64,000 nt of DNA, taken from NCBI GenBank assembly GCA_026400835.1, contig JAPLOA010000050.1:62001-126000 (forward strand), read 5' to 3'. This document shows, piece after piece, positions 34,956 through 41,064 of this stretch. Under the pieces are notes generated by a model. The model did not search any database, was not told the origin of the DNA, and worked only from the letters and a program-made list of their open reading frames with translations. Both the position numbers and the translations under genes were made by a program. The stretch comes from Planctomycetales bacterium (GTDB lineage: Bacteria > Planctomycetota > Planctomycetia > Planctomycetales > Planctomycetaceae). Positions within the stretch are counted from its first letter, which is position 1, and every line of letters starts with the position of its first letter.

Positions 34956-35124
34956 GGCGTAATGCAGATTAAATCGACACCCGTGGCTCTCGCCATTCGG
35001 CTCACAAAAAATGACTCCGCCGGGTGACTCGCTCTTGTCTCGCGATTCCTGCAAGATACGGCCAAATCAATCGCGCTCGAAATCCCCGGAACCTTAGTCC
35101 AACTCGGTGTGTCGCACGGTGACG

Positions 35125-38100
35125 ATGTCTTCGCTTCAGGATATTGAACAATCGCTTTTACTGGTCATGCAGGCTGATCAATTCTCCCTGCGCAAAATGC
35201 TGCGCATTGTGAGGGAGTCCGAGAAGGCCGGAAAACCGACCGATAAACTGCAGGAAAAGCTTCGAGCCCAGTTTGAAAAATCCAAACGCCGCCGCGAAGA
35301 ACGAGCCGTCTGGAAACCTCGCCTGCAGTGGGATGAAGAACTCCCAGTCGTTGCTCGCAAACAGGAAATCATCGACACGATTCGAGACAATCAGGTTGTG
35401 GTGTTGTGTGGCGAAACCGGGTCCGGCAAGTCGACGCAGCTGCCGAAGATCCTGATTGAAATGGGACGAGGACTCAGCGGAGTTATCGGGCATACACAAC
35501 CTCGTCGAATCGCTGCTCGCTCCGTCGCCGCTCGACTCGCTGAGGAGATGAACTGCCGACTGGGTCACGAAGTCGGTTTTCGGATTCGATTTACCGACAG
35601 CAGCGGACCGAATACGCGCGTTCGTCTGATGACGGACGGGATCCTGCTGGCGGAAACTCAAACCGATCGGTTTCTCGATCAGTACGATACGATTATCGTC
35701 GACGAAGCCCATGAGCGATCTCTGAACATTGACTTCCTGCTGGGATATCTTAAGCGTCTGCTGCATAAGCGACGTGATCTGAAAGTGATCATCACGTCGG
35801 CGACGATTGATGCGGCTCGTTTCGCAGAACACTTTGGCGATGGAATCCGGCCAGTTCCGGTGCTGCAGATCTCCGGGCGCATGTATCCGGTTGATATTCG
35901 TTACCGCCCGCTGGATCCGAATGAAGGAGTCGATGGACGCGGCCTGTCCGCTCTTAGTGATTCCGATGATGATAATCGTGAACCTCGTGACTGGCTGGAT
36001 GGTGTTGCTGACGCCGTCGAGGAAGTTTCCACGATCGACAGTGGGCACATTCTCATCTTTCTGCCAACCGAGCGAGATATTCGCGAGGCCGACAAACGTC
36101 TGGGAGGCCGACGGTTTCGGGGCGACACGCCGCAGGTGCCGACCGAGATTGTGCCGCTCTTTGGTCGACTGTCGATGGCTGATCAGACGAAAGTCTTTTC
36201 GCCCTGTTCGCATCGCCGCATTGTGCTGGCAACGAACGTGGCCGAATCGTCATTGACCGTGCCCGGCATTCGCTACGTGATCGATACCGGGACGGCTCGT
36301 ATCAGTCGCTATTCGGCTCGATCGCGTATGCAGCGGCTGCCGATCGAGCCGGTCTCGCAGGCTTCGGCCAATCAGCGTTCCGGACGTTGCGGGCGAGTTG
36401 GGCCGGGGATCTGCATTCGGCTCTACAGCAAAGAAGATTTCGACAGCCGCGAAGCCTTCACGGCTCCGGAAATTCAACGCACCAATCTGGCGGCTGTGAT
36501 TCTGCGGACGATTAATCTTCGTCTGGGCAACATCGAAGAGTTTCCTTTTCTGGACCCTCCGCGATCAACGACCGTCCGTGAAGGTTACAAGACTCTCGAG
36601 GAACTCGGCGCGATCACGGTCGAAGGAGAATTGACCGAGATCGGCCGTCGCATGGCCAGACTGCCGGTCGATCCGCGTATTAGTCGCATGATTCTCGCAG
36701 CCGTTGATGAGAACGCTCTGCCGGAAGTTCTGGCGATAGCGTCACTTCTGGAGAGCCAGGATCCTCGTGAGCGCCCGATCGAAAAGCAGCAGGCCGCCGA
36801 TGAAGCTCATCGAAAATTCCTTAATCGTGATTCGGACTTTCTGACGATCCTGAATCTGTGGGATGCCTGGCATGACAAACAACGCAGTGGTTCTCAGGGG
36901 CAACTGCGAAAATGGTGTCAGCAAAACTTCCTCTCCTTCATGCGCATGCGCGAATGGGTGGACGTGCATGAGCAATTGAAGGATCTGCTGTCCGAAAGTG
37001 ACGACCCGGCTATTTCGAAATCCGCGAAAGCTCTGCATCATCGACACGGTGATCGTTCCGGCGAGCGGCAGGGCGTCAGCCCTCCGAGTTCTCCCCAGAA
37101 TCCGGCTCCCCAGAAATCACCCACAAAACCTAACGACAAGCAAAAGCAGAACGCCGCTCAATCTGCCGTCAAGATGGCACCTCCTGCAACACCGCGTCAT
37201 AACGATTTCGCCGCCACCCACCGCGCGCTGATGACGGGGTTGCTGGCCAACATCGGCTGCCAGAATCCCAACGGCGACTTTATGGGCGCGGGCGGAAACA
37301 GTTTGGCGATCTGGCCGGGATCCGCATTGTCTCCCAAAGGCGCGAAGTGGTTTGTGGCCGGAGAATTGGTCGAAACCAGTCGCCGTTTTGCTCGCACGAT
37401 TGCTCGCATTCAGCCGGAATGGATTGAACCGCTGGCCGAGCATTTGGTCAGCCGCGAGTATTTCGAGCCGCACTGGGATCCGGTCGCCGGCAACATCATG
37501 GTGTTCGAAAAAGTGAGCCTGTGGGGCCTGCCGATCGTGCCGCGTCGAAAGGTGACGTACGCCAAAGTCGATCCGATCAAAGCTCGCGAGATGTTGATTC
37601 AACACGGCCTCGTTGAGTTCGGCCTGCTGTTCGGCGATGCTGATCCCGACAACGCCGGCGCAGAAGATTACGACGATGAAGAAGAAGCTTTGTCGCGCGG
37701 AGCATCAAAGGTTCGGCCGGGACGCAGCACGGCAGCAAATCCTTTATCGAAACGCAAAGGCTGGGGGCATGAGTTTCCGTTTCTGGCTCACAACCACGAT
37801 GTGCTGGATCAGTTGAAAGATCTTCAGGCACGAACTCGATCACATCACCTGTTGCCGGGGGATGAAGTTCTTTTCGAATTTTACGCGTCGCAGATTCCCG
37901 AAGAGTGTTGTGATCGAGATCGGCTACGTCGCTGGTTTCAGAGAACTGTGACGCGGAATGCTCGATTACTGCAGTTCGATATCAATCAGTTCTCCGACGC
38001 TGCTCATCGCACCGAACAAGCCGCGATGTTTCCTGAATCCGCTCAGTTCGGCGCGATGCATCTGCCATTGTCGTATCAGTTGGATCCTGGCCGAGATGCG

Positions 38101-39420
38101 GACGGCGTAACAGTGACGGTTCCCGTCGAAGGTCTTGGTCAGCTCAACGAAACGCGTCTGGAATGGCTGGTTCCGGGGCTGCTGGAGCAAAAAGTATTGG
38201 CGTTGATTCGTTCGCTGCCCAAGCATTTCCGCCGCCACTTTGTTCCCGCACCGGATACGGCCAAGCTGGTCGCATCGGATCTGGAGTTCGGTAAAGGCGA
38301 TCTGTTAACGGGTACGGCGGCTCGGCTTTCTCAACTTGGTGGCGAACGCTTTGATGCTCGCGAGTTTGACCTGAGTACTCTGGATGATCACCTGAAATTC
38401 AATATCTGCGTCGTGGATGATCAACGCAAAACGCTCGTAGAAGGCCGTGATCTTAAATCGCTGCGTGAGACTTTGATTCAGCGAAGTCAAGCGGCTGTCG
38501 GAACTTCAAGCAAAGCCCAGTCGGGGAATGAAGTTTCCGCAGAAGAAGCGAAGTGGACTCGCGGCGGGTTCAAAGCCTGGGACTTCTTTGATATCCCCGA
38601 ACACATCGAAATCAAACGCGCCGGGATGTTGATTCGATCGTTCCCGTCACTGCAGGACGATGGCGAAACGGTCGGTCTGGTGCTTTGTCATACTTCCGAA
38701 GATGCGGTTCGGATTCTTCGCAAAGGACTGTTGAAGCTGATTCTGATTTCTGAACGCAAACGTGTGCTGATTCAGATCGGCAATATGCCTCAGATCGGGC
38801 AGATTAAACTGCTGTCATCGTCCATCAAAGGGCTGGAGCTGATGAATCATCTCTCGCTGCTGATGGTGGAACGAGCTTACCTGGCAGATCAGCCTCTGGC
38901 TCGCACAAAGTTTTCCTATGAGAAAACGTTGCAGCGAGGTCGTGAGCGACTGGGAACGATCGCGCAGGAGTTTGTGCAGTTTCTCCCGCACTTGTTCAGC
39001 CAGTACCATGAAACTCGACGTGCCCTTGAGCAAACTCGCGGGCCCGGCTGGGATCATCTGTTGAACAGCATGAAGCTGCAGTTAGCCTTGTTGGTGCATA
39101 CCACGTTTCTGATCGAAACACCCTGGCCGTGGCTGATCCAGTATCCTCGATACTTTCAGGGAATTCGTCAGCGACTGCAGCGATTGTCATCCGGCGGTCT
39201 GAAGACGGAGCAAACTCTGGAGTCAGAGTTCGCTCCATGGCTCGCGCGGTATGAGCAGAAGTTAAAAGATCATCAGCGGCAACAGCGTATCGATCCAATG
39301 CTGAGCCATTATCGGTGGATGCTGGAAGAATTCCGAATTCAGTTATTCGCGCAGAAGCTTGGTACGGCGATCAGTGTTTCAGCCGCGAAACTTGAAGAGC
39401 AACTCGGGCGAGTGCTCTAA
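35125..39420 (+). CDS. hrpA: ATP-dependent RNA helicase HrpA (DEAH box)
   Basis: 1431 aa. Motif I GETGSGKSTQ (about 98), motif Ia TQPRRIAARSVAARLA, motif II DEAH (about 193) within IIVDEAHERSLNIDF, motif III TSATID, motif VI QRSGRCGRVGPG, then the ratchet (HA2) and OB-fold domains and the long C-terminal DUF3418 region that defines HrpA. E. coli HrpA acts on mRNA and rescues collided ribosomes. Compared with E. coli (about 1300 aa) there is a Pro/Gln/Lys-rich linker of about 60 residues at about 655-715. I prefer ATG 35125 to the GTG at 35107. Confidence 0.95.
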   Translation: MSSLQDIEQSLLLVMQADQFSLRKMLRIVRESEKAGKPTDKLQEKLRAQFEKSKRRREERAVWKPRLQWDEELPVVARKQEIIDTIRDNQVVVLCGETGSGKSTQLPKILIEMGRGLSGVIGHTQPRRIAARSVAARLAEEMNCRLGHEVGFRIRFTDSSGPNTRVRLMTDGILLAETQTDRFLDQYDTIIVDEAHERSLNIDFLLGYLKRLLHKRRDLKVIITSATIDAARFAEHFGDGIRPVPVLQISGRMYPVDIRYRPLDPNEGVDGRGLSALSDSDDDNREPRDWLDGVADAVEEVSTIDSGHILIFLPTERDIREADKRLGGRRFRGDTPQVPTEIVPLFGRLSMADQTKVFSPCSHRRIVLATNVAESSLTVPGIRYVIDTGTARISRYSARSRMQRLPIEPVSQASANQRSGRCGRVGPGICIRLYSKEDFDSREAFTAPEIQRTNLAAVILRTINLRLGNIEEFPFLDPPRSTTVREGYKTLEELGAITVEGELTEIGRRMARLPVDPRISRMILAAVDENALPEVLAIASLLESQDPRERPIEKQQAADEAHRKFLNRDSDFLTILNLWDAWHDKQRSGSQGQLRKWCQQNFLSFMRMREWVDVHEQLKDLLSESDDPAISKSAKALHHRHGDRSGERQGVSPPSSPQNPAPQKSPTKPNDKQKQNAAQSAVKMAPPATPRHNDFAATHRALMTGLLANIGCQNPNGDFMGAGGNSLAIWPGSALSPKGAKWFVAGELVETSRRFARTIARIQPEWIEPLAEHLVSREYFEPHWDPVAGNIMVFEKVSLWGLPIVPRRKVTYAKVDPIKAREMLIQHGLVEFGLLFGDADPDNAGAEDYDDEEEALSRGASKVRPGRSTAANPLSKRKGWGHEFPFLAHNHDVLDQLKDLQARTRSHHLLPGDEVLFEFYASQIPEECCDRDRLRRWFQRTVTRNARLLQFDINQFSDAAHRTEQAAMFPESAQFGAMHLPLSYQLDPGRDADGVTVTVPVEGLGQLNETRLEWLVPGLLEQKVLALIRSLPKHFRRHFVPAPDTAKLVASDLEFGKGDLLTGTAARLSQLGGERFDAREFDLSTLDDHLKFNICVVDDQRKTLVEGRDLKSLRETLIQRSQAAVGTSSKAQSGNEVSAEEAKWTRGGFKAWDFFDIPEHIEIKRAGMLIRSFPSLQDDGETVGLVLCHTSEDAVRILRKGLLKLILISERKRVLIQIGNMPQIGQIKLLSSSIKGLELMNHLSLLMVERAYLADQPLARTKFSYEKTLQRGRERLGTIAQEFVQFLPHLFSQYHETRRALEQTRGPGWDHLLNSMKLQLALLVHTTFLIETPWPWLIQYPRYFQGIRQRLQRLSSGGLKTEQTLESEFAPWLARYEQKLKDHQRQQRIDPMLSHYRWMLEEFRIQLFAQKLGTAISVSAAKLEEQLGRVL

Positions 39421-39895
39421 GCGATGCACAAGACGCCAACGGGTTTACCGACAATGGCGTGGACTTAAGGGAATTCAGCGTTGATCATCGCTTGGGACTG
39501 CGTAAGTTTTGGTCCGTTGTTGCGGGCTGTGTTTCGCGGCGTAGCTGCGGCAGCATTTAGCCCCAGGCTTCAGCCTGGGGTGGGTGGCGAAAACCCGATC
39601 CATCAGCCGTGAAACGGCGACAGCGATGGTTTTTTCAACGATATCAACACATTGCTGTCGCCGTTTCACGGCTTAACGTTCGTTTTCAAACGTCTTTGCC
39701 CCAGGCGAAAGCCTGGGGCTACCTGCTGCCGCCTCTACGAGGCGAAATCAGATCGATAGTTGCCCCACTAAATCTCGTTGTAATACCAAATTCTTGACCC
39801 CTCAGGACAAGCCCCATTGTGACAAGTCGGTCCTAAGTCTACGCCATTCGGGTTCATCCCGGTGGCTTAACGGCTTTTGCACCACGTTTATCAAC
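39421..39895. other. Gap with nested palindromes
   Basis: Mostly filled by the palindromic element at 39534-39752. No coding region supported. Confidence 0.5.
39534..39752. repeat. Nested palindromic element (MITE- or REP-like)
   Basis: An imperfect palindrome of about 220 bp with three nested parts. A perfect 20-bp inverted repeat, 39605-39624 / 39654-39673 (AGCCGTGAAACGGCGACAGC and its complement), surrounds the centre. Outside it are two hairpins, CCCCAGGCT..AGCCTGGGG at 39561-39580 and GCCCCAGGC-GAAA-GCCTGGGGC at 39698-39719. Outermost, GCGGCAGCA...TAGCCCC on the left mirrors GGGGCTA...TGCTGCCGC on the right. No protein is encoded. Confidence 0.85.
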
Positions 39896-40783
39896 TCACT
39901 TTGCCTTTGCCGCTGCTGCCAAATACTTGTCAAACCAGTCCAGCAGAGCAGTCTCAGCCTGAGTTCCCTGGTCGCCGGGAAAGCCATGAGCTGCGTCTTT
40001 CATCACGATCAGTTCACAGGTCGCCCTGGACTCCTGCATGGCCTTGAGGAATCGTTCGCTGTGTGAGATCGGCACGAGTTCATCTTTGTCGCCATGAATC
40101 AGCAGCGTAGGAGCATCGTCGGCCGACACCGCGAGAAGTGGTGAAACATCATCGGCCTGATCATCGGGGAATACGATTGCTGGAAACTGACGGCTCAGTG
40201 TTTTGTGATTCACGTACTCACGCATATCGGTCGGAGGAAAATAAGCCACCACCGCCTGAACTCGACTGGAGACTTTTTCATTCTCGACATCCGACTTTTC
40301 GCTGCCGTCATCTCCCATTGAGCCAAGAACGAGGGACAGATGACCGCCGGCGCTGCCACCGCAAACACCGATGCGAGCCGGGTCGATTCCGAAATCAGTC
40401 GCATGGGCACGAATATGTCGAATCGCCAGTTTGACATCGGCCACGGCGTCGGGCACCTTGAAATATGGACTGCTGCCGTGGCGAACGAGAATCAGCGTGT
40501 AGCCTCGGTCAACAATCTTCTCGAACAAGTTCAGTGAGTCTGGTTTTTCAGTGCGTACGACAGCGTCCGGACGAGCCCAGGTGGAAACCCAGCCGCCGCT
40601 TACCATAAAAAGCACCGCCGCACCGTTTGGCTTCGCGGGGTTCACGACATCATAGGTCAAAGCCATCCCGGCTTTGTGACCATAGATGACATCGGGCATG
40701 ATCGTTCGCCAGTCTTCCGCGAATGATGATGAAGCAAGAAGAACTGAAAGCAAAACGGGGGCAATAACAAGCGATCGAAACAT
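39896..40783 (-). CDS. Exported alpha/beta-hydrolase (esterase/lipase-like)
   Basis: About 295 aa from ATG 40783. Signal peptide FRSLVIAPVLLSVLLASSSFAED. The fold of BD-FAE/prolyl-oligopeptidase-like esterases is seen: oxyanion region VSGGWVS, nucleophile Ser in GVCGGSAGGHLS, Asp in LLIHGDKDELVP and His in KDAAHGFPGD. A carboxylester substrate such as an acetylated or feruloylated sugar is inferred. Upstream ATG codons at 40792 and beyond are possible starts. Transcribed alone. Confidence 0.88.
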   Translation of the reverse strand: MFRSLVIAPVLLSVLLASSSFAEDWRTIMPDVIYGHKAGMALTYDVVNPAKPNGAAVLFMVSGGWVSTWARPDAVVRTEKPDSLNLFEKIVDRGYTLILVRHGSSPYFKVPDAVADVKLAIRHIRAHATDFGIDPARIGVCGGSAGGHLSLVLGSMGDDGSEKSDVENEKVSSRVQAVVAYFPPTDMREYVNHKTLSRQFPAIVFPDDQADDVSPLLAVSADDAPTLLIHGDKDELVPISHSERFLKAMQESRATCELIVMKDAAHGFPGDQGTQAETALLDWFDKYLAAAAKAK

Positions 40784-41064
40784 ACAGTTCATCCACGAAG
40801 TCAGGATCATAAAAAATGATAGTATCAACGACTGGCACCAACGTGCCTCCGATCGCTGCTGTGACTATACTCGGAGGCAGGACTCAATGGGAGGGAGTTG
40901 CTGATTCCGCTGGAACGCAAAAAAGAATGGAATGCCATAGAGCTTCCATACATTGCAGAAAGTTGCATCTTTCAACTTTCCACCTGAAAAATGCCTCCGA
41001 ATTCAGTTCCTGTGTGATGGTCTATCGTGATCGAATACTGGTCGTCTTTTGATCGTTGAGATCA

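Follow-up and report, generated by a model that had tools for sequence, protein, structure and literature searches.

Insertion sequences of the IS200/IS605 group, such as IS608 and ISDra2, depend on HUH/Y1 transposases that recognize subterminal hairpins as single strands. REPINs are described by Bertels and Rainey (2011, PMC3116915) as doublets of REP sequences that form hairpins and are linked to single-copy Y1 transposases; an IS200-like element is proposed there as one possible origin. In the text of Di Nocera et al. (2013, PMC3733652), cutting at GTAG is mentioned for the E. coli TnpA-REP, and R. baltica is named as rich in both REPtrons and TIRtrons. REPs, REPINs and REP-flanked Y1 genes are already known, Planctomycetes included (PMC3733652). 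The signature Y---Q--HH marks subclass 1.2 of the TnpA-Y1 proteins (Quentin et al. 2018, PMC6006769), which is described as low-copy, generally without typical terminal structures, and found mostly in Cyanobacteria and Bacteroidetes. The Rfam family RF01687, Acido-Lenti-1, was judged "probably" an RNA by its authors (Weinberg et al. 2010, PMC2864571, Table 1). A regulator role for Acido-Lenti-1 copies near protease genes is suggested in a 2026 paper (PMC13298647).

The locus compared here lies in a window of 64,000 nucleotides, the whole stretch of DNA that was analysed, from a Planctomycetales bacterium. An earlier note had read it as a triple-nested palindrome, either a non-autonomous mobile element or a structured RNA. 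On the evidence of its sequence, it is probably a non-autonomous, REPIN-type miniature transposable element in which two inverted, NTAG-footed REP hairpins surround a further 20-nt inverted repeat. Such a unit would correspond to an IS200-type HUH/Y1 element minus its gene.

Anatomy of the nested palindrome

The perfect 20-bp inverted repeat described in the earlier note was recovered by an inverted-repeat search; its two copies, termed core arms (Table 1), lie within longer arms of 33 nt (39596-39628 / 39650-39682). It is enclosed by two near-identical hairpins, CCCCAGGC-TTCA-GCCTGGGG (39561-39580) and CCCCAGGC-GAAA-GCCTGGGG (39699-39718). The GAAA cap noticed earlier is real, being the loop of the latter. 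The mirrored ends are present as outer hairpins that enclose both REP hairpins, and the same search returned arms of 49 nt (39532-39580 / 39699-39747) that are 84% complementary. The limits first proposed, 39534-39752, were nearly right for these three inner levels but overlooked a fourth, looser inverted pair that is the outermost (39435-39467 / 39834-39866, 76% complementary in the inverted-repeat search). As this pair is included, the repeated stretch comes to about 433 bp. To call the structure more elaborate than REP units was right insofar as a further palindrome sits between two REPs.

Two convergent ORFs lie 475 bp apart here, and the repeated stretch occupies most of that gap. The left neighbour (35107-39420, plus strand) encodes a DEAD/DEAH-helicase-like protein of 1437 residues with Pfam helicase domains and DUF3418, which we take to be HrpA-like. 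The right neighbour (39896-40828, minus strand) encodes an alpha/beta hydrolase. Folding of positions 39500-39790 as single-stranded DNA gave a predicted energy of -89.1 kcal/mol, against -44.9 +/- 3.7 for shuffled sequences (z = -11.8); none of 200 dinucleotide shuffles was equally stable.

Table 1. Features of the nested palindrome, in window coordinates
Feature	Position	Strand	Evidence or remark
REPIN-like unit: outer hairpin, REP hairpin, 20-nt core arm, spacer, then mirror order	39532..39747	.	inverted repeats, fold, aligned copies
Left outer hairpin, local stem	39535..39549	.	DNA fold; second stem of the RF01687 match
Left REP: foot TTAG + hairpin CCCCAGGC-TTCA-GCCTGGGG	39557..39580	+	pattern search, DNA fold
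Rfam RF01687 Acido-Lenti-1 match, 39.0 bits (gathering score 37), E 2.1e-7	39535..39580	-	
Left core arm AGCCGTGAAACGGCGACAGC, perfect inverted repeat with 39654-39673	39605..39624	+	
29-nt spacer; transposase gene occupies the equivalent place in related elements	39625..39653	.	
Right core arm	39654..39673	-	perfect inverted repeat with left arm
Right REP: foot GTAG + hairpin CCCCAGGC-TTTC-GCCTGGGG, minus-strand reading	39699..39722	-	pattern search, DNA fold
Right outer hairpin, local stem	39730..39744	.	DNA fold
Outermost inverted repeat, left arm; ends differ between copies	39435..39470	+	
Outermost inverted repeat, right arm	39832..39866	-	

Copies in the genome and in its relatives

A search for further copies, advised in the earlier note, was carried out with positions 39500-39790 against the 7.58-Mb genome of origin and returned 56 matching pieces on both strands. 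At 19 places, the window included, the match extends over at least 120 bases (120-291) with 76-100% identity. An orphan chance palindrome is ruled out by these copies together with the fold statistics. The REP core CCCCAGGCTNNAGCCTGGGGCTA, with up to two mismatches allowed, occurs 41 times in the genome, and its reversed pattern, used as a control, does not occur. The two inverted REPs of Table 1 are dispersed as one unit, since they are found as pairs in most aligned copies. The core 20-mer, with two positions two-fold degenerate, was found in 22 stretches of genome contigs.

The stems persist in 16 aligned copies, with 96.6% of cells paired. This pairing is no better than predicted by column shuffles, and there is no excess of compensatory change, one pair with a change on both sides being found versus 0.5 in the shuffles.

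The 434-bp stretch was matched in 10 of 40 genomes, that of origin included, most strongly in G015 and G022. The window copy is present at the orthologous site in G015, with 93% identity over 3047 collinear bases, and two further G015 copies also occupy sites that are orthologous in the genome of origin. The G015 copy on contig C691 is missing from the matching site in the genome of origin, both flanks of which align at 88%. For the G015 copies on C316 and C840, no counterpart site in the genome of origin was found among the loci compared. As the window copy is at a shared site and one site is occupied differently, the element appears to be old but not static. By its sequence, the nested palindrome looks like mobile DNA, and the proposal of a non-autonomous mobile element is supported by the copies in the genome and by the transposase-bearing versions in relatives presented below. 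The note had also proposed a search for target duplications; none was seen at the boundaries of the inner three levels. They are not expected from Y1 transposases.

The site of the C691 copy holds a different palindrome in the genome of origin (G000:C83:26860-26981, L183) and a short insert with the same outer arms as the element in G004 (G004:C267:6474-6551, L184). Three genomes (G015, G000 and G004) have differing palindromic inserts at this one hairpin. Two loci, L011 and L014, display the outermost arms, variable ends and direct repeats of 9-11 bp.

The assembly of the genome of origin is broken at 16 contig ends (L055-L070) by an insertion sequence, itself unassembled, whose ends read TGTGCCTAAACCTA. 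Of these junctions, 11 lead from the insertion sequence into AGGCTNNAGCC, which is the loop side of the REP hairpin in the window, and it therefore seems to target REPs. Targeting of REPs is known for other insertion sequences.

Transposase-bearing relatives

The genome of origin contains 19 matches to the Y1 transposase family PF01797. Several lie near differing GTAG-like hairpins (e.g. L050, L051, L053), and these sequences point to several parallel REP systems in this genome. The best match, on contig C24, has GTAG-CCACAGGCTTTAGCCTGTGG on both sides, that is, the window REP with one base pair exchanged. The C24 gene (L036), the nearest in this genome to that of G139 described below, has its REP, CCACAGGC, in direct orientation on both sides and sits outside any nested palindrome.

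The 154-residue C24 protein was searched in 170 genomes of the order; matches were obtained in 87, with 1-9 per genome. The flanks were read at 31 loci: 30 listed by this search, and one (L094) found through the 20-mer. Many of them present, in order, an outer hairpin, an NTAG-footed REP, a spacer, a 20-nt core arm and the transposase gene, followed by the same parts in mirror order. The start codon mostly lies about 10-35 nt past the core arm, and the gene fills exactly the loop of the window architecture.

The closest case, G139:C482 (L155), comes from another genus of the same family. Its left side consists of GTAG-CCCCAGGCTTTAGCCTGGGG, a spacer and CCGCCGTGAAACGGCGGCAGCG, followed by an intact ORF of 154 codons and then by the mirror image; a 50-nt inverted repeat of 98% spans the transposase gene. 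The left REP has the foot GTAG and the hairpin CCCCAGGC-TTTA-GCCTGGGG, and the right REP reads CCCCAGGC-TGAA-GCCTGGGG and then CTAC. The 106-nt left end of this locus matches both ends of the window element over 75-76 nt (78% and 75%, with E-values of 2.6e-9 and 7.1e-7). Global alignment of the window with both G139 ends gave 132 identities in 208 aligned columns. Pieces of the same 106-nt end were found 33 times in the genome of origin, 13 times in G015, twice in G139 and not in G103; those in G139 are the two ends of its own element, and no gene-less copy of this type was found in that genome. Among the loci read, the window's exact REP flanks a transposase gene in G139 only. In a Fuerstiella MAG (L094), a gene of this type is closely preceded by an exact AGCCGTGAAACGGCGACAGC and closely followed by a mirror copy with one mismatch. 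In view of the shared architecture and the end homology with G139, the window copy is best read as REPIN-like, with the transposase gene absent.

Hairpins were counted at these loci by a fixed rule: a foot N[ACT]AG, an 8-bp stem with at most one mismatch and at least five G/C, and a 4-nt loop, within 260 nt. Such a hairpin was present on both sides of the gene in 20 of the 31 loci and in no locus over 200 shuffles of all flanks; the two-sided hairpin is lacking in the other 11. At two of the 20, L153 and L154 (the gene of the genome of origin and its counterpart in G015), another hairpin stands downstream, and the count without them is 18 of 31. The feet vary across loci (GTAG, ATAG, TTAG, AAAG); the window has GTAG on the right and TTAG on the left, and G139 has GTAG on both sides. 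The stem sequences vary between genomes yet stay paired. As pairing is required by the rule, its persistence is a description and no proof of covariation, and the 35 distinct hairpins, having been chosen for pairing, were kept out of any covariation claim.

The C24-type protein matches the NCBIfam IS200/IS605 family (E = 1.7e-25) and the sequence of the ISHp608 TnpA (E = 6.4e-11), with both the HUH and the Y stretches covered. The motif Y---Q--HH is found in 30 and [DN]H[VI]H in 29 of 30 loci, all of which were picked by likeness to one query. By its motif, the enzyme would belong to TnpA-Y1 subclass 1.2, with an IS200-like core and a low copy number. Given that Y---Q--HH is the signature of this subclass, the enzyme is not a RAYT proper (class 2), despite the REP-like ends; in the table rows of PMC6006769 the class 2 signature is a Y motif that ends in NP, against Y---Q--HH in all 30 loci. 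PMC6006769 names class 3 Y1 proteins for Planctomycetes, but an assignment to class 3 was rejected: the motif is that of subclass 1.2, and the feet have the form NTAG instead of CnGA. We infer that the C24 gene is the best candidate for the enzyme serving the window family, which may have been spread by the C24 enzyme or by one since lost.

Relation to the Rfam family Acido-Lenti-1

The covariance model of RF01687 fits the left half of the unit above threshold (Table 1); the right half gave no match up to an E-value of 1. Alignments with other loci indicate that the RF01687 consensus corresponds to the REP hairpin, CTA, a spacer and the outer hairpin. The earlier idea of a structured RNA is touched on in that the left half matches an RNA family above threshold, but the way this family is distributed speaks for termini of a transposable element, at the level of DNA. 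Three other Rfam hits, on the core, were discarded: mir-994, mir-2008 and sca_ncR27 scored 28.6, 25 and 18.7 bits, far under their gathering scores of 93, 93 and 91.

At least one RF01687 match at threshold is present in 22 of the 30 transposase loci, within flanks reaching at most about 1.5 kb to either side of the gene match. In eight of the 30 (L161-L165, L173, L175, L179) matches stand on both sides and point outward, on the minus and then the plus strand. A scan of L094 gave none. When loci were centred on RF01687, 8 of 20 had a second match at 129-173 nt in opposite, outward orientation, a distance that equals the spacing of gene-less units. Over the 170 genomes, RF01687 was found in 75 of 87 with the transposase versus 20 of 83 without it (Fisher p = 7e-17, a value that kinship makes too small). 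Within the genus, the figures are 10 of 10 versus 3 of 8 (p = 0.0065), and 14 control genomes had no match. In one set of 21 genomes, 11 have matches, with 3-79 copies per genome. In the genome of origin, the seven listed of 16 matches all fall inside copies of the window element. Tandem series also occur in G027, with four matches at 346-nt steps (G027:C1:5288152-5289235) and four at 154-nt steps (G027:C1:2979079-2979586).

As RF01687 both flanks transposase genes and co-occurs with them, this Rfam "RNA" is probably the end of a transposable element, at least in Planctomycetes. In the passages of papers that name Acido-Lenti-1, no link between RF01687 and a transposase was found; the motif is also discussed in the supplement of PMC2864571.

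Discussion

The anatomy of the unit, its copies, the homology of both its ends to an element that carries a transposase gene, the presence of HUH and Y motifs, and one site of presence and absence are supported by sequence. Its mode of movement may be pictured as follows. During a single-stranded stage, for example at a replication fork, each end would fold into its own REP hairpin. A Y1 transposase supplied in trans would bind the REP hairpin and cut beside the NTAG foot through its catalytic tyrosine, and the unit would move without target duplication. IS608 provides the analogy for recognition of a hairpin plus foot on a single strand, and the E. coli TnpA-REP, with its cutting at GTAG (PMC3733652), a second one. 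Hairpin recognition, cutting, transposition and the single-strand intermediate are all presumed on such grounds.

Alternatively, the larger 433-bp stretch could be the mobile unit: a MITE moved by a DDE-type transposase, its terminal inverted repeats lying around AATGGCGTGGACTTAAG, with an old REPIN as cargo. Its right end is common to most copies as far as 39844-39866, and the outer arms do form inverted repeats. In one copy and its G015 ortholog, each outer end carries the direct repeat GCTGAGCCC, of 9 bp; another copy has GTCACTCCGCC / GTCGCTCCGCC there, and the short G004 element with the same outer arms lies at the site of a G015 copy. The sequences of the outer arms and direct repeats suggest a second miniature element, of DDE type. 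However, copies such as those on C60 and C29 end near the REPIN limits (39750, 39747), the left outer ends are highly variable, convincing direct repeats are found in two insertions only, and in the sequences inspected the core architecture occurs in other genera without these outer arms. We consider a MITE origin of the whole unlikely. Most copies reach past the REPIN to the outer arms, and the REPIN may be the cargo of a larger element or share a palindrome hot spot with it.

It might also be supposed that transcription of the unit, or of its RF01687 half, gives a functional small RNA or 3'-UTR element and that the repetition is incidental. The score of the left half above the curated Acido-Lenti-1 threshold, the verdict of the family's authors (PMC2864571) and the stems kept in the copies would fit a role as RNA. 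Against it stand the numbers of RF01687 copies per genome, their position on both sides of transposase genes and their co-occurrence with these, their location within copies of the element in the genome of origin, and the lack of compensatory excess. No promoter- or terminator-like site was detected within 39300-40000 either, and a function as RNA is very improbable. The same scan speaks against a host element, such as a bidirectional transcription terminator, that was dispersed by gene conversion or duplication instead of transposition, an explanation suggested by the position between convergent ORFs and by the strong hairpins. Since the many copies are dispersed among unrelated flanks and the unit is homologous to the ends of a transposase-bearing element, we give this last explanation hardly any credence.

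Returning to the REPIN-like element, what is new, as far as the literature was searched, is the gene-in-loop architecture with an IS200-type subclass 1.2 enzyme, the gene-less derivatives, and Acido-Lenti-1 as their ends. On balance, we incline to the view that RF01687 represents, instead of an RNA gene, the paired terminal hairpins of widespread IS200-type (subclass 1.2) Y1 elements, with the gene in the loop of a triple-nested palindrome and with REPINs as the gene-less copies. An Rfam "RNA" of little-known function would then become mobile DNA, at least in Planctomycetes, and caution is warranted in that RF01687 matches should not be read as regulators. A transposase group reported without typical terminal structures (PMC6006769) would gain concrete ends. 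Matched pairs of palindromes with and without the gene would make the origin of REPINs from an IS200-like element (PMC3116915) testable on extant elements. If Acido-Lenti-1 does represent Y1-element ends, these elements would be a surviving intermediate stage from IS200-like insertion sequences to REPIN/RAYT systems.

Comparison with known systems

Like the REPINs of PMC3116915, the element consists of an inverted REP pair with a spacer, is dispersed, and has a link to a Y1 transposase. Unlike in REPINs, a conserved 20-nt inverted repeat makes up the spacer, and an additional outer hairpin accompanies each REP; the transposase is of the IS200 type with Y---Q--HH, not of the RAYT signature, and lies inside the doublet in relatives. 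The GTAG foot, the hairpin and the dimers with structured spacers are shared with the GTAG-tagged REPs, REPtrons and TIRtrons of PMC3733652, and transposase genes flanked by REPs or inverted repeats with REPtrons and TIRtrons. A gene-less element that keeps all three levels of a transposase-bearing relative is not described in the text of that paper.

The enzyme resembles TnpA-Y1 subclass 1.2 (PMC6006769) in its Y---Q--HH motif, its low copy number and its proximity to IS200 transposases. It departs from the subclass as described there in that the ends are elaborate and the elements are common in Planctomycetes. The covariance model of RF01687 (PMC2864571) fits the REP hairpin, the CTA and the outer hairpin of the element; RF01687 is entered in Rfam under sRNA genes, whereas in the present loci it resembles one end of an element with a Y1 transposase. 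With IS200/IS605 the system has in common an HUH/Y1 transposase, as judged by the sequence match to the ISHp608 TnpA. It differs from that group in its symmetrical inverted ends, its long nested palindromes and its one or few non-identical gene copies per genome.
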